Source: Thalassospira lucentensis (GTDB taxonomy: Bacteria > Pseudomonadota > Alphaproteobacteria > Rhodospirillales > Thalassospiraceae). From it: 64,000 nt of DNA. The stretch lies in NCBI RefSeq assembly GCF_001613805.1, contig NZ_LPVY01000003.1:248001-312000 (forward strand). The letters run 5' to 3'. Within the stretch, counting starts at the first letter, position 1, and every line of letters starts with the position of its first letter. Positions 4,112-52,617 of the stretch are shown here, piece after piece. Both the position numbers and the translations under genes were made by a program. The notes beneath the pieces are model-generated. The model was not told where the DNA came from, ran no database searches, and saw only the letters and a list, made by a program, of their open reading frames with translations.

Positions 4112-5041
4112 TCAGGCACCCGCTTCCTGGGTTTCTTCGCCTTCCGGGATCTTGCGGCGCAGACGCAGCACCATCAGCAATGGCGATGCTACGCAGATCG
4201 ACGAATAAGTCCCGATCACAATACCGAAAATCAACGCCATCGTGAAACCGCGAATCGCTTCACCACCGAACACAAACAACGCGATCAGCGCCAGCAAAGT
4301 GGTAAACGAGGTCATAGTGGTACGCGACAGGGTCGAATTGATCGAAAGATCCAGCAGATCGGGAATGTCCATCTTGCGAAACTTGCGGAGATATTCACGA
4401 ATACGGTCAAACACAACGACCGTATCGTTGATCGAATAACCCGCAACAGTCAGAACCGCCGCCAAGGTTGCCAGATCAAACTGAACCCCGGTGATGACAA
4501 AGAACCCGATCGTGATCAGAACGTCATGCAGAAGCGCCACAACCGACGCTACGGCAAACTGCCATTCGAATCGGAACCAGATATAGATCATGATCAGCAG
4601 CAGCGATATGGCAACCGAATAGACCCCGGCTTCCTTGAGCTCGTCACCGACTTTCGGCCCAACCAGTTCACTGCGACGAATGGTAACATCATCACCAAGC
4701 GCCTTGGTTACTATGGCAAGCGCCGCCATCTGGGCCTGCTCATCACCGTCCTGACGCTGCAACTGGATCAGAACATCATCGGGCTCACCGAATTCCTGGA
4801 TCGAAACATCACCAAGACCAAGCGAACCAAGATTGTCACGTAGCGCGCCAATATCGGCCGGACCGTCGGTTTTGATCTCAACCAGAATCCCACCCCGGAA
4901 ATCGATCCCGAAATTCAGCCCTTTGGTCAAAAACAAACCAACGGATACCAGCACCATGGCCAGCGAAACGATATAGAAAATTTTCCGGAACTTGAGGAAC
5001 GGGACGTTCACGTCGTCCGGAACAAGATGCAATGGTTTCAT
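4112..5041 (-). CDS. secF: Protein translocase subunit SecF
   Basis: The 309-residue inner-membrane protein has the SecF layout: TM1 near residues 20-40, a periplasmic P4 domain opening with the FGIDFRGGILVEI motif, then five more helices. TM4 carries the conserved AGYSINDTVVVFDRIRE motif, which includes the Asp implicated in proton-driven pulling of preproteins. SecF works with SecD and YajC beside SecYEG. The gene begins 19 nt after the secD stop, in the order yajC, secD, secF, so all three are probably co-transcribed. Length is normal for separate alphaproteobacterial SecF. Confidence 0.97.
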   Translation of the reverse strand: MKPLHLVPDDVNVPFLKFRKIFYIVSLAMVLVSVGLFLTKGLNFGIDFRGGILVEIKTDGPADIGALRDNLGSLGLGDVSIQEFGEPDDVLIQLQRQDGDEQAQMAALAIVTKALGDDVTIRRSELVGPKVGDELKEAGVYSVAISLLLIMIYIWFRFEWQFAVASVVALLHDVLITIGFFVITGVQFDLATLAAVLTVAGYSINDTVVVFDRIREYLRKFRKMDIPDLLDLSINSTLSRTTMTSFTTLLALIALFVFGGEAIRGFTMALIFGIVIGTYSSICVASPLLMVLRLRRKIPEGEETQEAGA

Positions 5042-5060
5042 ATTCTTCCTGCTCCCTTCC

Positions 5061-6635
5061 TCAAATTACCAGTTCCGTCGGGCGACGGCGTTTGACCCAG
5101 ACCGCAATCAACAGTCGGGTCACCCAGATTGCCGAGAACATCGACGTGACAATGCCAATCGCAAGTGTCACGGCAAATCCCTTGATAGGACCGGAACCAA
5201 AGCTGAACAGCACAAGCGCTGCAATCAGCGTGGTCAGGTTGGCATCAAGAATGGTCGACATCGCACTTCGATAACCGGCATCAATCGCATTGATAATGGT
5301 GCGGCCATTGTTACGTTCCTCGCGGATACGTTCAAAAATCAGCACGTTCGCGTCAACCGCCATACCAACCGTCAGAACAATACCGGCAATACCCGGCAAG
5401 GTCAGGGTCGCTTGCAAGACCGACATCACCGCCAGCACAAGGATCAGGTTGATCAAGAGCGCGATATCGGCATAGACCCCGAACCGGCCATAACTGATCA
5501 CCATAAAGGCAACGACGAAGACCAGACCAAGGATCGCTGCAATTTCACCGGCTTCGACCGAATCTTGGCCAAGCCCCGGACCAACGGAGCGTTCTTCAAG
5601 GATCTGCATCGGTGCCGGTAATGCACCAGCACGCAGCAGCAGCGAAAGATCGTTGGCTTCCTGGACACTGAACTGGCCGGTAATGATACCGTTGCCACCA
5701 AGGATCGGCTCGTTGATCCGCGGTGCCGAAATCACCTCGCCGTCAAGAATAATGGCCAGTCGACGACCGGCATTTTTTGACGTCATATCGCCAAAACGTG
5801 CCCCACCGGCGGCATCAAAGCGGAACGAAACAACCGGTCGGCCTTCGTTGAAGGTCGGCTGCGAATCAACGAGGTTGTCCCCCGAGACAACGACACGGCG
5901 ATCAATAAGATATTCGTTGATACCGGCAGCCCGGTCACCGGCATCGGCCGATGGCAGGATCATCGTTCCCGGCGGCAGGCCCGTGGCACGCGCCTCGGAC
6001 GCGGTCTTTTCCTCGTTCACAAGGTGGAAGTTCATCTTTGCGGTGCGGCCAAGGATCGCGCGCAAACGCGACGGATCGTCAAGACCAGGAACCTGAACCA
6101 CAATGCGGTCTTCACCCTGACGCTGGATCGACGGTTCGGTCGTTCCCAGTTCGTCCACACGACGGCGAACAACCTCAAGCGATTGGCTGATTGCGCGATC
6201 AACAAGCTCTTTGCGGGCTTGATCGGTATAAGAAACGATAATGTTGTTACCCTCGCCGCTCATTACGGTATCGGGTTCGACATTACGGATCAGTTCGCGG
6301 GCTTTTTCAACCTCGTCGGCGTTGACCACGGTGACCTCTGCCCCGTTCAGGCCAGCATCGCGCGGACGGTAACGAATGCGTTCCTCGCGCAGGGTTGACC
6401 GGATCGTATCGCCAAGTGCCTCATAGCGCTCGCGAATGACGCTGTTGATATCAACTTCAAGCAGCATGTGCGAGCCACCACGCAAATCCAGACCAAGATT
6501 GATCTGTTTACCCGGCAGATAGCTTGCATCCGTCGCGAATGTGCCCTTTGGCAGGAAATTCGGTGCGGCGTATATAACGCCCAAAGCACACACCAGAAGA
6601 ACCAGTGCTGCTTTCCATTTCGTAAAATAAAGCAT
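5061..6635 (-). CDS. secD: Protein translocase subunit SecD
   Basis: The 524-residue inner-membrane protein has TM1 at residues 5-25 and the LGLDLRGGSHMLLE motif at the start of the large periplasmic P1 domain. The later RSVGPGLGQDS segment precedes five C-terminal helices. The GMAVDANVLIFERIREE motif holds the catalytic-type Asp of the proton path. SecD pulls exported proteins out of SecYEG using the proton gradient. This is the usual split-gene form, in contrast to the fused paralogue at 46178-48754. A hairpin separates it from yajC upstream, so expression may be uncoupled from yajC. Confidence 0.97.
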   Translation of the reverse strand: MLYFTKWKAALVLLVCALGVIYAAPNFLPKGTFATDASYLPGKQINLGLDLRGGSHMLLEVDINSVIRERYEALGDTIRSTLREERIRYRPRDAGLNGAEVTVVNADEVEKARELIRNVEPDTVMSGEGNNIIVSYTDQARKELVDRAISQSLEVVRRRVDELGTTEPSIQRQGEDRIVVQVPGLDDPSRLRAILGRTAKMNFHLVNEEKTASEARATGLPPGTMILPSADAGDRAAGINEYLIDRRVVVSGDNLVDSQPTFNEGRPVVSFRFDAAGGARFGDMTSKNAGRRLAIILDGEVISAPRINEPILGGNGIITGQFSVQEANDLSLLLRAGALPAPMQILEERSVGPGLGQDSVEAGEIAAILGLVFVVAFMVISYGRFGVYADIALLINLILVLAVMSVLQATLTLPGIAGIVLTVGMAVDANVLIFERIREERNNGRTIINAIDAGYRSAMSTILDANLTTLIAALVLFSFGSGPIKGFAVTLAIGIVTSMFSAIWVTRLLIAVWVKRRRPTELVI

Positions 6636-44024: not shown

Positions 44025-45506
44025 TTAATTGTTTTCGTCGATCCTGGCTCGGACATATGCCAAATCAACCGGCACGTAGTCTGGCCCGGTAACCAGCCTT
44101 TTACCAGTTAATGCCCCTGGCCAGCTTTTGGGATCGGATTTCCAGACAGTGCCGTCTGGCATTGGAACTTCAAGTGCATCGTCATATCCTTCGGCATGGC
44201 CTGAAACCAGTTCCAGATCACCGCAAATGCCCGCCTTGAATATCGGCCCGAGAGCCGGGCGCGGATTATAAAGCACGCCGGGCCAAGCATCGAATATCGC
44301 CGGATAGGTCGCATGATTGCATAAATCGCCGGAAAACATCACGCTGCGATCTTCTCCAAGATCAAGTTCATCGGTCGGACCAAACAATGTCTGATCTACT
44401 GACATCAGATTGATCGGCAATGTCACCGGATCGGCATAACCTATGGCATTGCGACGGTTCTGCCACATTCTGGTCGCGCCCTTTTTGACGTATTTCTGGC
44501 GTAGGAAGAAGCTGTTGTGGAAGCATTCAAATGGCAGGTTTGGCTGCGCGTGGCTTGCTTTGCCGAATTTGAAAACGGCACCACCATTATTTTCGTCACC
44601 TTCCGGCCCCGGGCGGCTGTCGAACCAGCCGCGATTGCCAAAATAATACCAATACCCGCCAGCCAGATTATCCTGCGAAAACAGTTTGTGGCAGTTATAG
44701 AACTGGTTATAGGCCACCCACCAGCCAACAGCAGTTGCTTCGGGTTCGACCGGGTTATCGCGCACAAAACTGAACCGGTTATTGATTATCCGGACATTGC
44801 GATTAAAACTGCCGATAGGCTTTTGCATATTAGCCGCGGATACATCCATTCGAATGGCGTTATAGCAATGTCGAATATCATTCCCACGGATCAGAATATC
44901 GCCCGCAATGTCATCCGCACCAAAGAATGCACCGTTAAGATATCGATATGGGGCTTCCTTGCCCGGCGTGATTTCACCATCATGGATCATCGCCCAGTGA
45001 AGGTAACGCCAGATCACGTCATCCTGAATCCAGTCGCAATTTTCGATGGTGATGCGTGATGCATGCTCGCCCGTTGCATAAAAGGCATATGTTCCACCAC
45101 GGATTTGCATGTTTTTGAATGTCAGATCGTTGCTGTCGCGGATATAAACGGCACTGGGCCATGCGCGTTCGATACGGATATTATCAAGGCGGATATGGCG
45201 CTTTCCGATGATGCGAAACGCCGCATATCTGGCACATTCAGGATCGGTTGCCGAGACTTCCGGATCGGGCGGGCGACGACCGTCCAGTGTCGCACCATAT
45301 TCACCGCGAATGATGATTGGCTGATCTTCAAGCCCGCTGATCGGAATATCGACTGGCTCGGGCAGGAAATAGTTTCCCGGCATCAAACGGATCAGATCAC
45401 CAGGCGCACAATTGGCAACCGCATTATGAAGTGTCGCGGTTTCCCGCCAGGCAGAATCCACCCAATGACGCCCGCCATCCGGCGTGACATAAACCATCCT
45501 GAGCAT
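44025..45506 (-). CDS. Right-handed parallel beta-helix protein
   Basis: The 493-residue protein shows repeated beta-helix rungs (IRLDNIRIERAWPSAVYIRDSND, LTFKNMQIRGGTYAFYATG, ILIRGNDIRHCYNAIRMD). They resemble pectate-lyase/PL6-type or mannuronan-epimerase folds. No signal peptide is visible: the N-terminus is MLRMVYVTPDGGRHWVDS. If it acts on polysaccharide it is either cytosolic or exported unconventionally. No catalytic set could be assigned. AGAGGA precedes the start. It is divergent from the ApdP-like gene; alginate- or pectin-type genes are absent nearby. Confidence 0.65.
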   Translation of the reverse strand: MLRMVYVTPDGGRHWVDSAWRETATLHNAVANCAPGDLIRLMPGNYFLPEPVDIPISGLEDQPIIIRGEYGATLDGRRPPDPEVSATDPECARYAAFRIIGKRHIRLDNIRIERAWPSAVYIRDSNDLTFKNMQIRGGTYAFYATGEHASRITIENCDWIQDDVIWRYLHWAMIHDGEITPGKEAPYRYLNGAFFGADDIAGDILIRGNDIRHCYNAIRMDVSAANMQKPIGSFNRNVRIINNRFSFVRDNPVEPEATAVGWWVAYNQFYNCHKLFSQDNLAGGYWYYFGNRGWFDSRPGPEGDENNGGAVFKFGKASHAQPNLPFECFHNSFFLRQKYVKKGATRMWQNRRNAIGYADPVTLPINLMSVDQTLFGPTDELDLGEDRSVMFSGDLCNHATYPAIFDAWPGVLYNPRPALGPIFKAGICGDLELVSGHAEGYDDALEVPMPDGTVWKSDPKSWPGALTGKRLVTGPDYVPVDLAYVRARIDENN

Positions 45507-45535: not shown

Positions 45536-45571
45536 CCCGATAAGATTTTTATTATCGGGCTTGTTTTTTTT
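45536..45571 (+). terminator. Orphan intrinsic terminator upstream of the ApdP-like gene
   Basis: CCCGATAA pairs with TTATCGGG over 8 nt and is followed by CTTG and eight Ts on the plus strand. The nearest plus-strand gene upstream ends 2.1 kb away, so it terminates no annotated gene. It is either a shield against antisense reading of the beta-helix gene or a leader attenuator 48 nt before the ApdP-like start. Confidence 0.8.
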
Positions 45572-45618: not shown

Positions 45619-46062
45619 ATGCCGCAACCAGTCAGCCAAGCCGCAGAGGCAACAGATCATTCCGAGCGCAACCAGTCCCTACCGGGTCTGTTGCGCCATG
45701 TTTCATTTTGCCTGATCGCTTGCGCGCTTGTTCTGTTTGGTGGTGGAACCTCAATCACCGCCAAGCCGCTTTCCGATGGGGTGACTTTCCCCTATCCGTT
45801 TAACACCGTCAATCACGATAGCGGTCCGTCGCAAGCAGTCCTTCCGGTGGCACCAGATCGTGCCATCGCAGGCAATCGCCAGACCCCGGACGATGTACCG
45901 TCCCATCAGCCAACCCTCCCCGATGATGCCGCAGTTGTGCCGTCGGTCACACCGCATGCCGCCGCGCAATGGGCGATCCTAATCTTTGTGGCGGGTACGA
46001 TCACGACACATGGCGCAGAAACTCTTCCGGTTTCTCCGCGTGCTCCGCCCTTTCGGGCCTGA
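45619..46062 (+). CDS. ApdP-like translation-arrest peptide / Sec monitor upstream of secDF
   Basis: The 147-residue protein has a hydrophilic start, then a signal-sequence-like segment (residues 25-49, LLRHVSFCLIACALVLFGGG, then TSITAKP). A long low-complexity Pro/Asp/Ala region follows, and the C-terminus is SPRAPPFRA. The RAPP motif (residues 141-144) is the core of the arrest peptides ApdA/ApdP, known upstream of secDF in actinobacteria and alphaproteobacteria. Vibrio VemP is a functional analogue. The expected role is to stall its own ribosome until the nascent chain is pulled by active Sec machinery. Stalling would switch on the downstream secDF. The only sizeable gap, 115 nt, carries the predicted switch. 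Function is inferred; motif and position are seen directly. Confidence 0.8.
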   Translation: MPQPVSQAAEATDHSERNQSLPGLLRHVSFCLIACALVLFGGGTSITAKPLSDGVTFPYPFNTVNHDSGPSQAVLPVAPDRAIAGNRQTPDDVPSHQPTLPDDAAVVPSVTPHAAAQWAILIFVAGTITTHGAETLPVSPRAPPFRA

Positions 46063-46167
46063 TTTCCGTTAATTAAAACTGCGGCCAGATCAGCGCCGTG
46101 TTTCCAGAAATATCAGGTGACAGCACCGCCGGGCATCAAACTGGCCCGGCTCGAATGCTGTGCGGAG
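46034..46167 (+). promoter_or_regulatory. Predicted Shine-Dalgarno sequestering switch for secDF
   Basis: CTCCGC occurs twice in the codons around RAPP (46034-46039 and 46043-46048). Each is complementary to GCGGAG (46162-46167), the ribosome site of secDF 10 nt before its ATG. The first copy adds three wobble pairs (CTCCGCGTG with TGTGCGGAG). An internal hairpin, GCCGGGC/GCCCGGC (46128-46150), would bring the ends together. A ribosome with Pro143 in the P site would cover both copies and open the ribosome site. Confidence 0.65.
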
Positions 46168-46177
46168 TTAATTTTTC

Positions 46178-48754
46178 ATGCGTACATCAAGATGGCGTGT
46201 GGTTGTCTATGCCCTTGTCCTTCTGACAGGATTCCTGACAGCCCTGCCTAACCTTTTCAATCCGGCCCAGCTTGCCAACTGGCCAGCCTTTTTACCCACC
46301 CGACAGGTTGCCCTTGGGCTTGACCTCAAAGGCGGATCGCACCTTGTTCTGGAAATCGATACCGCAGCAATGATTGCCGAACGGCTTGAAATCGCGCGTG
46401 ACGATGTGACAACGGCCCTCCGCAAGGCCCATATTGCGACTGATAACATTCAGATCAGCAAAGATCAGGTGATTGTAACCCTGCCTGACGCCAAGGATCA
46501 CGACGCTGCCCTTGATGCCCTAAAAGACCTTACCAATGCGCAAGTTGATACACCGCGACACGGATCGACAGCGGAATTTGTCATTACAACACCGCGCGAT
46601 AACAGCATTTATATAGCACTTAGCGAACAAGGCATTCGCAATCGGGTTGACGCCAGCGCCCAGCAAAGCCTAGAGATCATTAGAGGCCGGATCGATCAGA
46701 TCGGTGTGTCCGAACCCACTATCCAACGGATTGGCAGTGATCGTGTCCTGGTGCAGTTACCGGGCATTCAGGACCCGTCTCAGGTCAGAAAACTTCTGGG
46801 AAGCACGGCAAAGCTTGGCTTCTATATGTTGGCCGACCGTAACGGAACAGACAGGCGCGACAGTAGTATCCTTACATTGAAAGACAAGGACGGCCAAAGC
46901 TATCACCTGCATCGTACTCCGGCCCTTTCGGGCGATCATCTTACAGATGCACATGCCGGTTTTGATCCGCAAAGCCATCAGCCGGTTGTCAATTTCCGGT
47001 TTGATACGGCCGGTGCGGCAAAGTTCGCCGATATCACACGTGCCAATGTCGGAAAACCCTTTGCCATTGTTCTTGATAACGAAGTCCTGAGTGCGCCGGT
47101 TATCCGGGAGGCAATAACCGGTGGCTCAGGCCAGATCAGCGGCAGCTTTACGGTCGGCGAAACGACGACACTGTCAGCCCTATTGCGTGCGGGCTCCCTT
47201 CCCGCCCCAATGACCGTAATCGAAGAACGAACTGTGGGCCCTGACCTTGGAGCCGATGCAATCGAAATGGGCCTTTATACCGGATTGATCGGGTTGGCTC
47301 TGGTAACCGGATTGATGTTTTTCCTTTATGGCCGCTGGGGTCTTATTGCCAATCTGGCATTGGGTCTGAACGTCATGCTGACATTCGGTGCCCTTGGTCT
47401 TATGGGTGCGACACTTACCCTTCCCGGTATTGCCGGGATTGTTCTGGGGATCGGGCTAGCCGTGGATGCCAACGTTCTGATCAACGAACGTATCCGTGAG
47501 GAGACCAAACGAGGGCTTTCTGCCTTCATAGCGCTCGATTCCGGGTTTAAGCGTGCCTATGCCACGATTGTGGATTCAAACATCACAACCCTTATCGCCA
47601 CTGCTCTTTTGTTTGAGTTCGGATCAGGCCCGGTGCGCGGCTTTGCCATTACGATGGGTCTTGGCATTCTGATTTCCATGTTTACCGCGGTTGCCGTTGT
47701 TCGGGTCATCATGACCGAAATCGTCTGGCGCACACGGATGAAAAAGCTCGTTATTGAACCGCTTTGGCGTTTCATGCCCGAAAAAACCAGCATTTCCTTC
47801 ATGCGGGCACGTTTTCTTGGCATCGGTATGTCGCTTTTGCTGTCAGCCATTTCAATCGGGTTGTTCTTCAAACCCGGTCTTGATTACGGCGTTGATTTCA
47901 AGGGCGGTATTCAGATCGAAGTTGCAGGAGGCAATCTGGATGACGGCAGCAGTCCCCTTGACCTTGGAACCTTGCGACAGGGACTTTCAACATTAGGGCT
48001 TGGCGATGTCAGCCTTCAGGATATCGGCAAGGATGGCCATATCCTGATCCGGGTTGAACGTCAGCCGGGCGGCGAACAGGCACAAACCGCAGCCGTCGAA
48101 ACCGTCAAGAAAGCAGTTCAATCCGTTGATCCGGCAGCGGATTTTGAACGCACCGAAGTCGTTGGCCCCAAAGTCAGCGGTGAACTCGCTCAATCCGGTG
48201 TCAGTGCCGTCATCTTCGCAAGCCTCGCAATGCTGGGCTATATCTGGTGGCGGTTCGAATGGCCGTTTGCCGTTGGCGCGATTGTTACATTGGTCCTTGA
48301 TGTGACCAAAACAATCGGCTTTTTCGCGATTATGGGACTCGACTTTAATCTGACCGCCATTGCCGCCCTGCTGACCCTGATCGGCTATTCGGTCAATGAC
48401 AAAGTGGTGGTCTATGACCGGATGCGTGAAAACCTGCGACTTTATCGAAAAATGCCGATGCGTGAAATCATCGACATGTCGATCAATCAGTCACTTGCGC
48501 GCTGCCTATTCACATCGCTTACAACCCTGTTTGCGATGGTGCCTATGGCATTCTGGGGCGGGTCTGCCGTTGAAAGCTTTGCCGTTCCGATGGTGTTTGG
48601 TGTTGTGATCGCCACAACGTCGTCGATCTATATCGCGGCACCAATCCTGCTGTTCCTTGACACATGGCGGCAGAAACAGCGCCAGAAGCATGTGGGATTG
48701 GCATCGGAAACCAATAACGAGCCAATGGTCGAGGCATCTACCAGCCAACAATAG
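46178..48754 (+). CDS. secDF: Fused SecDF protein translocase paralogue
   Basis: The 858-residue protein joins SecD (residues 1-530) and SecF (540-850), giving about twelve helices. SecD motifs are LGLDLKGGSHLVLE, RTVGPDLGADAIE and GIGLAVDANVLINERIREE. SecF motifs are GLDYGVDFKGGIQIEV and GYSVNDKVVVYDRMRE. The Asp residues of the proton path are kept in both halves, so it should be active. The tail carries a Lys/Arg/Gln stretch. A separate secD/secF pair exists at 4112-6635, so this is a second, probably induced copy under control of the arrest peptide upstream. Confidence 0.95.
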   Translation: MRTSRWRVVVYALVLLTGFLTALPNLFNPAQLANWPAFLPTRQVALGLDLKGGSHLVLEIDTAAMIAERLEIARDDVTTALRKAHIATDNIQISKDQVIVTLPDAKDHDAALDALKDLTNAQVDTPRHGSTAEFVITTPRDNSIYIALSEQGIRNRVDASAQQSLEIIRGRIDQIGVSEPTIQRIGSDRVLVQLPGIQDPSQVRKLLGSTAKLGFYMLADRNGTDRRDSSILTLKDKDGQSYHLHRTPALSGDHLTDAHAGFDPQSHQPVVNFRFDTAGAAKFADITRANVGKPFAIVLDNEVLSAPVIREAITGGSGQISGSFTVGETTTLSALLRAGSLPAPMTVIEERTVGPDLGADAIEMGLYTGLIGLALVTGLMFFLYGRWGLIANLALGLNVMLTFGALGLMGATLTLPGIAGIVLGIGLAVDANVLINERIREETKRGLSAFIALDSGFKRAYATIVDSNITTLIATALLFEFGSGPVRGFAITMGLGILISMFTAVAVVRVIMTEIVWRTRMKKLVIEPLWRFMPEKTSISFMRARFLGIGMSLLLSAISIGLFFKPGLDYGVDFKGGIQIEVAGGNLDDGSSPLDLGTLRQGLSTLGLGDVSLQDIGKDGHILIRVERQPGGEQAQTAAVETVKKAVQSVDPAADFERTEVVGPKVSGELAQSGVSAVIFASLAMLGYIWWRFEWPFAVGAIVTLVLDVTKTIGFFAIMGLDFNLTAIAALLTLIGYSVNDKVVVYDRMRENLRLYRKMPMREIIDMSINQSLARCLFTSLTTLFAMVPMAFWGGSAVESFAVPMVFGVVIATTSSIYIAAPILLFLDTWRQKQRQKHVGLASETNNEPMVEASTSQQ

Positions 48755-48913: not shown

Positions 48914-49699
48914 ATGTCGTTTCCTTTTCGGTTTATCACGACCATGGGTTTCTCATTTGGGTTGCTGATCAGTGCACAACATGGTGCTCAGGCCCACTTC
49001 CAGAAGATGATCCCGTCAACCAATGTGGTGACACAGGAAACCGGGCGCGATGTTGACGTCGATCTGACCTTTACCCACCCAATGACCAATGGCCCGGCTA
49101 TGGAAATGGCCCGCCCGGTTCAATTTGGCATCCAGACCAACGGCAATAAAACCGATCTTGGCGACAGTCTGGTGGCAAAGACGGTCGATGGCAAAGCAGC
49201 GTTTGACGCAACAATCAGCATTGATCGTCCGGGCGGATATGCCCTTTACGTCGAACCGGTTCCCTATTTCGAACCATCCGAGGGCAAATACATCATCCAG
49301 TACACCAAAACGATCATTGATGCGTTTGGTGCGGGCGAAGAATGGGATCAGATGGTCGGCTTCCCGGTGGAGATAGAGCCCCTGGCCCGCCCCTATGGCA
49401 TCTGGACCGGAAATGTGTTTAGCGGGATCGTCCGTCATAACGGCGAACCGGTACCATTTGCCGAGGTCGAGGTTGAATATGCCAATGATGGCAGCATCAC
49501 GCTGCCGAACGACAGTTTTTCAACACAGGTCATCAAGGCCGATGGCAATGGTGTTTTCACCTATGCCATGCCACGTGACGGTTGGTGGGCGTTTGCTGCC
49601 CTGATCGAAGATGGCACGATGGCCGCCCCCGGATCGAATGATCAGGTTCCGGTCGAACGCGGCGGTGTCATCTGGGTCAAAACCGACGCGATGGACTGA
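48914..49699 (+). CDS. nikK: NikK-type DUF4198 periplasmic component of Ni/Co ECF transporter
   Basis: The 261-residue protein has a Sec signal peptide (residues 1-27) ending AQA, so the mature chain would begin with His-Phe-Gln. DUF4198 beta-sandwich features follow (DVDVDLTFTHPMTNGP, GGYALYVEPVPYFEPSEGKY, EVEVEYANDGSITLPND). DUF4198 proteins encoded with CbiM-like genes are called NikK and are thought to help capture nickel outside the membrane. AGGACAG precedes the ATG. It heads the nik cluster, 160 nt after secDF. Confidence 0.85.
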   Translation: MSFPFRFITTMGFSFGLLISAQHGAQAHFQKMIPSTNVVTQETGRDVDVDLTFTHPMTNGPAMEMARPVQFGIQTNGNKTDLGDSLVAKTVDGKAAFDATISIDRPGGYALYVEPVPYFEPSEGKYIIQYTKTIIDAFGAGEEWDQMVGFPVEIEPLARPYGIWTGNVFSGIVRHNGEPVPFAEVEVEYANDGSITLPNDSFSTQVIKADGNGVFTYAMPRDGWWAFAALIEDGTMAAPGSNDQVPVERGGVIWVKTDAMD

Positions 49700-49725
49700 T
49701 GCTCCCGACCAGACGCACAGCATCG

Positions 49726-49750
49726 TCATACTTATTTATAAAAAATATGA
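49726..49750 (+). promoter_or_regulatory. AT-rich inverted-repeat element before nikM
   Basis: TCATAC, an AT-rich core and TATGAA repeat the arrangement seen before nikK, with a spacer one nucleotide shorter. It implies a second, co-regulated promoter in front of nikMLQO. Confidence 0.45.
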
Positions 49751-49800
49751 AACCTGCTTGACTTCGCGACAGCGAAATCGCTACGCTTTTCAGGCAGGTT
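49749..49800 (+). promoter_or_regulatory. Structured leader before nikM
   Basis: AAACCTGC pairs with GCAGGTTT (8 bp) and encloses a TTCGC/GCGAA hairpin. It sits 107 nt upstream of nikM in a 208-nt gap that is unusual for this compact cluster. It could be an attenuator or the 3' hairpin of nikK mRNA. Confidence 0.4.
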
Positions 49801-49907
49801 TTACCGCCTGTATGCCCCACCGCAATAAAATCAATGCGCCGTTCCATCCGTTTGCACACCTGCCTGCAAGCTGATGGATTGCAAATGCGCTTTACAGGGA
49901 TTTGACC

Positions 49908-50531
49908 ATGCACATCGTCGACGGAGCCCTATCGAGTGAAGTCGTTGTCACTGGTGCGGTTTTGGCTGTTGCCGGCATCAGCTACGGGCTTCGCAAAATC
50001 GATATTGATGCGATGCCCCGCGTGGCGATGATGAGTGCCGTCTTCTTCGTTGCCTCCCTGATCCATGTTCCCGTCGGGCCAAGCAGTGCGCATCTGATTG
50101 TCAATGGTTTGGCTGGCTTGATGCTGGGCTGGTCCGTTTTCCCGGCGATATTCATCGGACTGTTGTTGCAGGCAGTTTTCTTTGGTTTCGGCGGCATTAC
50201 GGTTCTGGGTGTCAATACAGTCAATATAGCCCTGCCCGCCGTTTTGATGTGGTGGCTGGTTTCACCGTTTCTGGCACGTGCCGAAGGAAAATCGGTGCTG
50301 CTGGCGGGTTTTGTTGCCGGGTCCGGTGCCATTGCCCTTTCAAGCATGATGGTCGGCCTGTCACTTGCCGCCAGCGGACAGGAATTTGTTCCGACGGCAA
50401 AGCTTGTCGTCATGAGCCACATCCCGGTTATGGTGGTTGAAGGTATCCTCACCGCGGCAGCCGTTCATCTCGTCAAGAAAGTCCGTCCAGTCATGCTGGC
50501 ACCCGCCGGTTCGCTTCGAAGCGTTGCCTGA
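49908..50531 (+). CDS. nikM: ECF transporter substrate-binding membrane subunit NikM/CbiM
   Basis: The 207-residue membrane protein begins MHIVDGALSSEV. In this family the free N-terminal Met and His2 coordinate the metal, so ATG 49908 must be the start; the TTG two codons upstream would destroy the site. CAGGGA lies 7 nt upstream. Later signatures are HVPVGPSSAHLIVNGLAGLMLGW and GFGGITVLGVNTVNIALP. It binds and carries Ni2+ or Co2+. No CbiN gene is present; NikK and NikL take that place. Confidence 0.93.
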   Translation: MHIVDGALSSEVVVTGAVLAVAGISYGLRKIDIDAMPRVAMMSAVFFVASLIHVPVGPSSAHLIVNGLAGLMLGWSVFPAIFIGLLLQAVFFGFGGITVLGVNTVNIALPAVLMWWLVSPFLARAEGKSVLLAGFVAGSGAIALSSMMVGLSLAASGQEFVPTAKLVVMSHIPVMVVEGILTAAAVHLVKKVRPVMLAPAGSLRSVA

Positions 50532-50534
50532 TAG

Positions 50535-51203
50535 ATGCCCCGATTTCCCGCTTTATATACAATTGCTGTTCTGATCGGCACGCTGTTCACATGCGTCAAT
50601 GCACGGGCACACAGCCTGCACGTTTTTGCGATGGGAAACGGTGACGTCATCGACGGCTATGCCTATTTCGGGGGTGGCGCCCGGCCGCAAGATGCAGAAA
50701 TCCAACTTCTCGATAATACAGGCCGCGTTGTCTTCGCCGGAAAGACAGGTGATCAGGGCGAATTCAAACTTCGCGTCAGTCATCGGCAGGATTATGTCAT
50801 CGAAGCCAATTCCGGTGATGGCCATATCGCCAGCTTCAAAATCAATGGTGATGAGCTTTCCGCTCAATTGCCGTCAGGTAGCGAAGACATCAATATTGAT
50901 GTCAGCCAGATTGACACGGCGTCATCTTTCCAAAGCAGAAAAACACACCCCTCATCGACAACCATTGCCACGGCCACTTCTGACGCGATGGTCACCCTTT
51001 CACGGGACGAGTTGGACAGCCTGATTGACGCTGCTGTATCCCGCCATGTCCGGCCCTTGCGCGAGCAGTTGGTTGCCTATGAGGACAAGGTCCGATTTTC
51101 CGACCTTCTGGGTGGCATCGGTGTCATCGTCGGAATATTCGGGGTCTTTGCTTGGTTTCAGGCCGTAAAATCACGCCCCCGTCAGCAAAATAAAAACCCA
51201 TGA
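50535..51203 (+). CDS. nikL: NikL-type accessory component of Ni/Co ECF transporter
   Basis: The 222-residue protein has a signal peptide (residues 1-25) ending ARA, giving a mature N-terminus His-Ser-Leu-His. A carboxypeptidase-regulatory-like beta domain follows (residues 40-95, IQLLDNTGRVVFAGKTGDQGEFKL). Then come a linker and a C-terminal helix (residues 188-208, LLGGIGVIVGIFGVFAWF) with a basic end. This is the NikL layout, a membrane-anchored periplasmic helper of NikM. It is 3 nt after nikM and overlaps nikQ by 4 nt. Confidence 0.85.
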   Translation: MPRFPALYTIAVLIGTLFTCVNARAHSLHVFAMGNGDVIDGYAYFGGGARPQDAEIQLLDNTGRVVFAGKTGDQGEFKLRVSHRQDYVIEANSGDGHIASFKINGDELSAQLPSGSEDINIDVSQIDTASSFQSRKTHPSSTTIATATSDAMVTLSRDELDSLIDAAVSRHVRPLREQLVAYEDKVRFSDLLGGIGVIVGIFGVFAWFQAVKSRPRQQNKNP

Positions 51204-51976
51204 TCGGAGAGACAAATGTCCTTGTGCCGTCACGATCCAGTTCGGCTCTGTTGCGGATTGATCCACGGTTTCGTGTACTGGCAGCTCTCGCGCTGATCGT
51301 AACCGCTATCAGTTTTTCAAGCTGGCAACCATTGGTAATGCTGGTTCTGGTAGCTGCCATCATTACCGGCTTTGCCAAACCGGACTGGTCCAGAACGCTT
51401 AAAATGGTTTTGGCCATGGATGGCTTTATCCTTGTGATGCTGATCATGTTGCCCTTTACCGTTCCCGGTCAGGTGATGTTCACCCTTTGGGATTTTGACG
51501 CCAGTTATCAGGGGCTGTTTCAGGCCGTGCTGATCGCGCTTAAGGCAAATGCCGCGATCCTTGTTGTGATTGCACTGGTGGGCGGAATGGATGCAATCCT
51601 TCTGGGGCGGGGGTTGCAGGGGATTTACGTACCGGCAAAGCTGGTGACGCTTTTCATGTTTACCGTTCGCTATATCGATCTTTTGCGGCGGGAATATATG
51701 CGCCTGCGTCTTGCCATGCGGGCACGCGCCTTTGTCGCGCGCAACAATCGCCATAGCTGGCGCAGTTTTGGATATTTGCTGGGGATGCTGCTGGTACGCG
51801 GCCATGATCGTTCGGAACGCATTCTTTGGGCGATGAAATGTCGTGCGTATCACGGTCATATGCATTTCGGCTCCTTGCCCCGGTTAAGCCCGCAGGATTA
51901 TCTGTTTGCGGCGGCGACCATTATTCTCATCGGTACTTTGATCGGGCTGGAGGTCGCATGTCCGGCGCTGATCTGA
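51200..51976 (+). CDS. nikQ: ECF transporter transmembrane subunit NikQ/CbiQ
   Basis: The 258-residue membrane protein has the CbiQ-type opening DPRFRVLAALALIVTAIS, four to five helices, and the coupling-helix signature LRLAMRARAF followed later by ERILWAMKCRAY. It joins NikM to the ATPase. ATG overlaps the nikL stop (ATGA), and nikO starts inside its last codons. Confidence 0.92.
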   Translation: MIGETNVLVPSRSSSALLRIDPRFRVLAALALIVTAISFSSWQPLVMLVLVAAIITGFAKPDWSRTLKMVLAMDGFILVMLIMLPFTVPGQVMFTLWDFDASYQGLFQAVLIALKANAAILVVIALVGGMDAILLGRGLQGIYVPAKLVTLFMFTVRYIDLLRREYMRLRLAMRARAFVARNNRHSWRSFGYLLGMLLVRGHDRSERILWAMKCRAYHGHMHFGSLPRLSPQDYLFAAATIILIGTLIGLEVACPALI

Positions 51977-52617
51977 TCACTGCCAAAAACCTGCATTTCA
52001 CCTTTCCCACCGGGCGCAAGGTGTTGAATGGGGTCAACCTGTCTCTGCGCACTGGGGAAAGACTGGCACTGCTAGGCACCAATGGCGCTGGTAAAAGCAG
52101 CCTGTTGCATTGTTTGATGGGTTTGGTCCCGGTGGAGAACGGCGAGATCGCCATTCTTGGGTCAAGATGCGAAACAGAAGCCGAATTCCGCGCCATTCGT
52201 GGTCGGGTCGGATTGCTGTTTCAGGATTCTGATGATCAGCTTTTCTGCCCGACTGTTATTGAAGACGTGATGTTTGGCCCGCTCAACCTTGGTCAATCAC
52301 GCGAAGATGCGCGAGAAATTGCCCAGCAAACCCTATCGGATCTGGGGCTGGATGGATTTGAAAATCGGATCACCTATCAGCTTTCCGGTGGCGAAAAGCG
52401 ACTGGTGGCGCTTGCGACCGTGCTAGCGATGTCGCCCGAAATTCTGCTGCTTGACGAACCAACCAACGGGCTTGATGCCGATGTCGAAAAACGTCTGATC
52501 GAAATTCTGCGTTCCCTGCCGCAGGCAATGCTGATCATTTCACATGATCGGCTGTTTCTTGATCAGGTCGCGACGCGTTCAGTCCGCCTTCAGGACGGCG
52601 TCATATCCCAAGCCTGA
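51958..52617 (+). CDS. nikO: ECF transporter ATPase NikO/CbiO
   Basis: The 219-residue ATPase has Walker A (LGTNGAGKSSLLHCL), Q-loop (FQDSDDQLFCPTV, where the Asp-Asp-Gln is typical of ECF ATPases), signature LSGGEKRLVALATVLA, Walker B (ILLLDEPTNGLD) and switch His (ISHDRLFLD). ATG 51958 follows GGAGG and overlaps nikQ by 19 nt. It is shorter than most CbiO proteins (about 270), lacking a C-terminal extension. It energises metal uptake. Confidence 0.93.
   Translation: MSGADLITAKNLHFTFPTGRKVLNGVNLSLRTGERLALLGTNGAGKSSLLHCLMGLVPVENGEIAILGSRCETEAEFRAIRGRVGLLFQDSDDQLFCPTVIEDVMFGPLNLGQSREDAREIAQQTLSDLGLDGFENRITYQLSGGEKRLVALATVLAMSPEILLLDEPTNGLDADVEKRLIEILRSLPQAMLIISHDRLFLDQVATRSVRLQDGVISQA

Follow-up and report, generated by a model that had tools for sequence, protein, structure and literature searches.

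A 147-codon upstream open reading frame (uORF) in front of the second SecDF gene of Thalassospira lucentensis, here called secDF2, almost certainly encodes an arrest peptide of the ApdP class, and control of secDF2 through ribosome arrest, by whichever route, appears highly probable to us. The product of the uORF probably senses weak export and turns on SecDF2, perhaps by freeing a start site that is hidden in the mRNA. To the statement as a whole, that an ApdP-type arrest controls secDF2 with a step of Shine-Dalgarno (SD) unmasking, we give slightly more credence than doubt. What may be new in Thalassospira is a predicted helix between the SD of secDF2 and the arrest codons, which closes a junction of two hairpins. 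Such pairing would give the ApdP class a testable RNA step of the kind that its discoverers reported not finding, and the uORF places this class of ribosome-stalling peptides in a marine genus that, besides canonical SecD/SecF, has an accessory SecDF in some of its species. All positions refer to the window, the whole stretch of 64,000 nt that was analysed, and are collected in Table 1.

In the mechanism that we propose, the N-terminal hydrophobic segment would target the nascent chain to Sec. At low Sec/SecDF capacity the chain would remain unpulled, and the ribosome would stall while P143 occupies the P site and P144 the A site. In the free mRNA, the secDF SD GCGGAG would be paired with the CUCCGC of the arrest codons, closing the P2/P3 junction; a stalled ribosome would cover these codons, with its leading edge approximately at the uORF stop, so that helix P1 would be blocked, the SD would become more accessible and SecDF2 would be made. 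With adequate export, the chain would be pulled, the stall released and P1 re-formed, and secDF2 would stay low. That engagement by Sec releases the stall is what we infer from the signal segment and the gene context.

Table 1 Positions of the genes, codons and RNA elements discussed in the text.
Feature	Position in the window	Strand	Evidence or remark
secDF2, fused SecD-SecF, 858 aa	46178..48754	+	NF009583, 1020.9 bits; SecD/SecF Pfam domains
canonical secD (~5061-6623) and secF (~4154-5038)	4154..6623	-	separate genes, taken as the primary pair
genes flanking apdP-secDF2: beta-helix protein and DUF4198	44025-45506 and 48914-49699		
apdP-type uORF, 147 codons	45619..46062	+	translation, orthologues, dN/dS; no family match
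hydrophobic signal or signal-anchor segment VSFCLIACALVLFGG, codons 28-42	45700..45744	+	hydropathy only
second CUCCGC copy	46034-46039	+	
R-A-P-P arrest motif, codons 141-144 (R141-A-P-P144)	46039..46050	+	sequence
predicted P-site codon (P143) and A-site codon (P144)	46045-46047 and 46048-46050	+	analogy with ApdP/RQH toeprints described in PMC10987492
predicted P1 5′ strand CUCCGC, inside the arrest codons	46043..46048	+	RNA folds, consensus, synonymous null
P2 5′ strand GCCUGAU, across the uORF stop codon	46057..46063	+	pairs with 46112-46118; one compensatory pair
P2 3′ strand AUCAGGU	46112..46118	+	
P3 hairpin abutting the SD strand	46120..46161	+	P3a 46120-46125/46156-46161; P3b 46128-46134/46144-46150
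secDF SD GCGGAG, predicted P1 3′ strand	46162..46167	+	GGAG ends 10 nt before the ATG

The upstream frame and the second SecDF

The first-pass annotation had proposed a 147-codon frame with an N-terminal hydrophobic segment and a C-terminal SPRAPPFRA, on the strand of a fused secDF and 115 nt before it. Translation and hydropathy confirmed the former, the 147-aa product ending in LPVSPRAPPFRA directly before the stop codon, and the coordinates bore out the latter (stop codon at 46060-46062, secDF start at 46178). Its wording of a second SecDF is also correct since the minus strand of the window also encodes a canonical, separate secD and secF pair, the products of which are 44% (SecD) and 46% (SecF) identical to SecDF2 (G000:C3:252154-254623).

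Residues 28-42 constitute the top 15-residue hydrophobic window of the uORF (Kyte-Doolittle mean 2.46), and 101 residues separate it from the P-site residue P143. The window contains 494 stop-to-stop frames spanning at least 60 codons, and R[AGS]PP falls among the final 25 residues in a single one of them, the uORF. For its product, a short, diverged peptide of low complexity, no relatives were found among Pfam, NCBIfam, PHROG or PDB sequences. Values of dN/dS between 0.28 and 0.58 were obtained for the 10 pairs among five close sequences, its own included, and judged by these comparisons purifying selection acts on the uORF. A reading of LIAC as a lipobox was discarded because G019 and G027 possess no such box. 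Directly upstream of the uORF, between the beta-helix gene and apdP, we also noticed a terminator-like hairpin with a T-run (45536-45559).

Conservation of the uORF and its motif

Fused SecDF was found in 8/29 of the genus genomes searched, and in all eight its gene is preceded by an ORF that encodes a hydrophobic segment near the N-terminus. The motif that the first-pass annotation expected in these orthologues is retained as RxPP in 8/8, followed in each by exactly three residues, but the strict RAPP form is seen in only six; the other two have RSPP, with which the arrest by ApdP is described as partly compromised (PMC7897499).

A SecDF scan of the species-genome collection, of which the best 80 of 164 relatives were used, covers close relatives only, mostly Rhizobiales, and includes three Thalassospira (T. 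xianhensis, sp. MCCC 1A03138 and a MAG). Three of the resulting 88 loci (L043-L045) duplicate L008, L011 and L009, leaving 85 distinct ones. In this set of the genus plus the best 80 of 164 relatives, R[AGS]PP was found upstream of fused secDF at 79/88 loci, corresponding to 76/85 distinct ones (57 RAPP, 17 RGPP, 2 RSPP), which upholds the ApdP-like identity proposed at the outset. A 15-residue hydrophobic window of at least 1.6 precedes the motif in 75/76 of these loci (again including the best 80 of 164 relatives); the weakest members, L065, L100 and L105, have gaps of 251-296 nt between uORF and secDF. R[AGS]PP is missing at nine loci: five have HGPP (L080, L088, L090, L091, L092), one has TGPP (L056), and at L070, L072 and L086 no motif was found upstream of the fused secDF. 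The HGPP loci form a Rhizobium sub-group whose sisters in the SecDF tree, L089, L093 and L094, have RGPP, so that HGPP represents a naturally occurring substitution of the residue with which the arrest motif begins.

Upstream of canonical secD, R[AGS]PP occurred in 0/61 frames at 22 loci. Among the order loci fetched, 14 outside the genus encode fused SecDFs and the remaining 8/22 are separate secD-secF pairs. uORFs ending in PRAPPA precede two of these 14 (L123, L124), a TGPP frame precedes five, and neither motif was found for seven. The distant fused SecDFs with TGPP upstream frames are L125, L126, L129, L135 and L136 (for example PTGPPA); TGPP is among the motif classes picked in PMC10987492.

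Relation to known arrest peptides

ApdP is already a defined class for Alphaproteobacteria, described from Sinorhizobium medicae and for 293 alphaproteobacterial uORFs (PMC7897499, PMC10987492), which makes the Thalassospira uORF less new. At the level of sequence, every feature of ApdP that we examined is found in it: a position right before a secondary secDF of an alphaproteobacterium (at 115 nt), a length of 147 aa without assigned function, within the 80-200 aa given for the class (PMC7897499), an N-terminal secretion signal or TM segment (residues 28-42, by hydropathy only), a long spacer with 101 residues from localization signal to arrest site where more than 40 are expected, and a conserved C-terminal RAPP-like motif (8/8 in the genus and 76/85 distinct loci including the best 80 of 164 relatives). 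In addition, Thalassospira SecDF2 groups with the SecDFs of Rhizobiales loci that bear such uORFs. It differs from ApdP in a predicted masking of the SD by the arrest codons, within a conserved RNA junction, and in the RSPP of two orthologues. According to the cryo-EM work reported in PMC10951233, a pocket of the PTC accommodates the Arg of RAPP and the A-site Pro is kept from reacting. The interpretation as an ApdP-like arrest peptide before a second SecDF is supported by these likenesses, and the product would by analogy stall the ribosome and sense Sec activity.

The name Thalassospira is absent from the main texts of PMC7897499, PMC10987492 and PMC12992588, the supplements of which could list it, and a literature search, supplements lying outside its reach, found no paper combining "Thalassospira" with "arrest peptide"; the uORF is possibly already contained in the supplement of PMC10987492.

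Going by the published descriptions, the nearest parallel to the Thalassospira arrangement is the RGPP peptide of Alteromonas naphthalenivorans (uDF_RQH_Enterobacterales), likewise a RAPP-like arrest peptide before secDF2, where stem-loop 2 partly masks the secDF2 SD and arrest was shown to induce secDF2 (PMC10987492). In contrast to this system of the order Enterobacterales, the predicted masking strand in Thalassospira consists of the arrest codons and acts across ~115 nt with two internal hairpins. VemP-SecDF2 of Vibrio alginolyticus shares the marine setting, the two SecDF systems and the regulation of the second one by an arrest peptide, but the VemP motif is given as HRIxGWKETNAMYVxLNxx, with no RAPP (PMC7897499). 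SecM-secA differs both in its motif, which ends in RAGP with other upstream residues, and in its target, secA.

A spacer of near-constant length

Counted from where the hydrophobic window ends, 100 or 101 residues lead up to the P-site residue in 8/8 genus loci. Over the 76 loci that include the best 80 of 164 relatives, the median of this signal-to-stall spacer was 101 (IQR 99-103) and its range 36-117, or 91-117 without L100, a locus with an 85-codon frame and no hydrophobic segment that was kept in the median and IQR and left out of the CV and identity calculations. In sets again including the best 80 of 164 relatives, the CV was 0.044 for the spacer (75 loci, in residues) versus 0.126 for the gap between uORF and secDF (73 loci, in bases, with L065 and L105 left out), and the median pairwise identity of the spacers was 0.24 (36 representatives, 630 pairs) versus 0.22 for shuffled ones (200 pairs), values to be read in view of the shared descent of the spacers and of a window end set by hydropathy alone. 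Arrest peptides linked to secA or secDF were described as having long spacers of a length that varies widely in most cases (PMC10987492, 2024). The near-constant spacer suggests that selection acts on the timing or the geometry with which Sec is engaged, and a function of the ApdP spacer as a molecular ruler is a lead offered by these sequences.

RNA structure between the uORF and secDF2

In the minimum-energy fold of the T. lucentensis locus, the secDF SD is paired with the CUCCGC of the arrest codons, and in the free mRNA it is predicted to pair with the ribosome footprint at P = 0.99; the fold energy of the segment itself is ordinary (z -1.58; 15/200 shuffles equally good). A consensus was derived from alignment A2, comprising 7 genus sequences (6 distinct) from 7/8 loci, from which L011 was omitted for having 32 nt less intergenic RNA (L011 is part of the 8-sequence tests). 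Unguided RNAalifold on the seven sequences returned P1, P2, P3 and a small helix that is broken in two divergent rows, with a covariation term of +1.57 kcal/mol, that is, no bonus overall. Within this alignment, 97.2% of the cells of the named structure are paired and five pairs have changes on both sides, and on four of five measures 0/500 shuffles were as high; on the fifth, further pair types, 458/500 were. Versions of the structure slid along the alignment gave 0 or 1 pair with changes on both sides. The compensatory pairs fall in P3a (two), P3b (two) and P2 (one), P3b being unalignable in G019 and G027, and none fall in P1. We consider P2 and P3 well supported by this conservation. The predicted helix P1 is moderately supported: 88.9% of its cells are paired, it is broken in some rows, and it shows no covariation, both of its strands being constrained by the protein or the SD. 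Searching Rfam at E <= 1 gave one match only, far below the gathering score and on the minus strand.

The same ApdP arrest could also act with no SD sequestration, through translational coupling, mRNA stability or another effect of the stall, with P2 and P3 only protecting or spacing the message. We regard this as a serious though rather unlikely explanation. It accords with the RNA structure prediction of Sakiyama et al. (2021), the account of which reports no SD-sequestering hairpins for ApdP (PMC7897499), and with the lack of covariation in P1. The RQH peptide of Alteromonas, likewise linked to secDF and demonstrated to work through an SD-masking stem (PMC10987492), argues against it, as does a synonymous null, in which codons were resampled while the amino acids and the codon sharing among relatives were kept. 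Against this null, the consensus probability of the SD pairing with the arrest codons in Thalassospira was 0.996 versus a mean of 0.45, with 1/500 resamplings as high (8 sequences), and consensus SD pairing was 0.997 versus 0.61, with 4/500 as high (7 sequences). A second construction of the null gave p 0.007 for the SD zone and a group p of 0.086 for the wider initiation region in Thalassospira.

Support from single loci is uneven, which again fits an arrest with no SD sequestration. The null p for SD pairing was below 0.05 for L006 (0.007), L007 (0.010), L009 (0.022) and L010 (0.025) and above it for L008 (0.10), L011 (0.13), L012 (0.057) and L013 (0.077), and the outcome varies with the flanks, P1 being lost in L012 and L013 with shorter and in L008 with longer ones. 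Only for L006, L007 and L010 was the cost of opening the SD above the null at p <= 0.05 (L009, 0.075; the remaining four loci, 0.38-0.96), and this cost was not reduced by the stall in L008 and L011 (long flanks) or in L013 (short flanks). Deleting whatever RNA lies under or 5′ of a ribosome stalled at P143 raised the predicted SD accessibility in 8/8 loci, only to 0.20-0.50 unpaired. The broader test of the footprint against the initiation region was weak in Thalassospira (2/8 loci at p <= 0.05).

A class-wide sequestration of the SD was rejected: pairing between SD and footprint reached at least 0.42 in just 7/67 non-Thalassospira loci, and the broader footprint-initiation-region test gave p <= 0.05 in 6/67, both among the best 80 of 164 relatives. 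For these counts a GGA-type core served as SD (75/76 loci, L065 dropped), a narrower version of the rule having found an SD in 28 loci. Consensus SD pairing was non-significant against the null in five rhizobial groups covering 36/67 of the other loci from the best 80 of 164 relatives, which likewise favours an arrest acting by another route. Similar-looking consensus folds in the Rhizobium RGPP and the Mesorhizobium/Aminobacter groups failed the synonymous null, before which the Rhizobium and Mesorhizobium sets had been made more uniform. This lack of class-wide SD pairing agrees with the 2021 account of ApdP cited above. Returning to Thalassospira, the joint proposition that the arrest codons double as an anti-Shine-Dalgarno of secDF2 in a junction opened by the stalled ribosome, and that ApdPs keep a ruler of ~101 residues while the spacer sequence drifts, is a tentative one, with doubt slightly ahead of belief.

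Transcription attenuation, with the stalled ribosome governing a terminator between the uORF and secDF, is very improbable. In some species GC-rich hairpins upstream of secDF are followed by a U-rich spacer between SD and ATG, but a terminator scan found nothing terminator-like in the gap 46063-46177, its three matches lying upstream of the uORF or within secDF, and G015, G019 and G027 have a shorter or interrupted U-rich tail. Finally, the uORF, as a conserved coding frame with a signal-like segment, might encode an ordinary small secreted or membrane protein with a chance or structural C-terminal RAPP and no regulatory arrest, RAPP-like motifs by themselves being described as often failing to arrest (PMC10987492), but this is hardly to be expected given that RxPP, its spacing to the C-terminus and the length of the spacer are all kept despite near-random spacer identity and that the motif occurs before secDF2 and is absent before canonical secD.

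Distribution and genomic setting

The beta-helix and DUF4198 genes that flank apdP-secDF2 lie ~213 and 215 nt apart, measured between tblastn matches, in G001 and G005, the two genomes examined of the 21 without SecDF2, and tblastn found no uORF or SecDF match between them. The interval in these two relatives gives an empty site for the apdP-secDF2 pair (L152 3159-5630). The pair is sited elsewhere in G019 and G027, where these neighbours are absent within 18 kb. A homology search with the uORF only gave matches in 5/60 genomes at E <= 0.01, its own included, and missed G019 and G027 because the peptide is too diverged; their uORFs were then exposed by the SecDF search. That the 21 genus genomes lacking SecDF2 have no uORF either is drawn from this weak uORF search, for those among the 60, and from the two empty sites. 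These patterns fit a pair of genes that comes and goes as one module; that the uORF is confined to genomes with SecDF2 is weakly tested by the homology search.

In a tree of 98 SecDF proteins (quick method, midpoint root, including the best 80 of 164 relatives), Thalassospira forms one group (SH-aLRT 100) that joins Azospirillum, Rhizobiales and L123/L124, and 12 other fused SecDFs of the order stand apart. L095, with a reading frame below 780 aa, and 8/22 order loci, in which separate secD and secF were read through, are omitted from this tree. For Vibrio, a sodium-dependent SecDF1 and a proton-dependent SecDF2 are described in PMC7897499. By analogy, the SecDF2 of Thalassospira may be for low-salt conditions. 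Downstream of secDF2, the profile-tested DUF4198 gene is accompanied by further genes within 48914-52617 of the window, which seem to resemble those of an ECF metal transporter of the CbiM/CbiQ/CbiO type.
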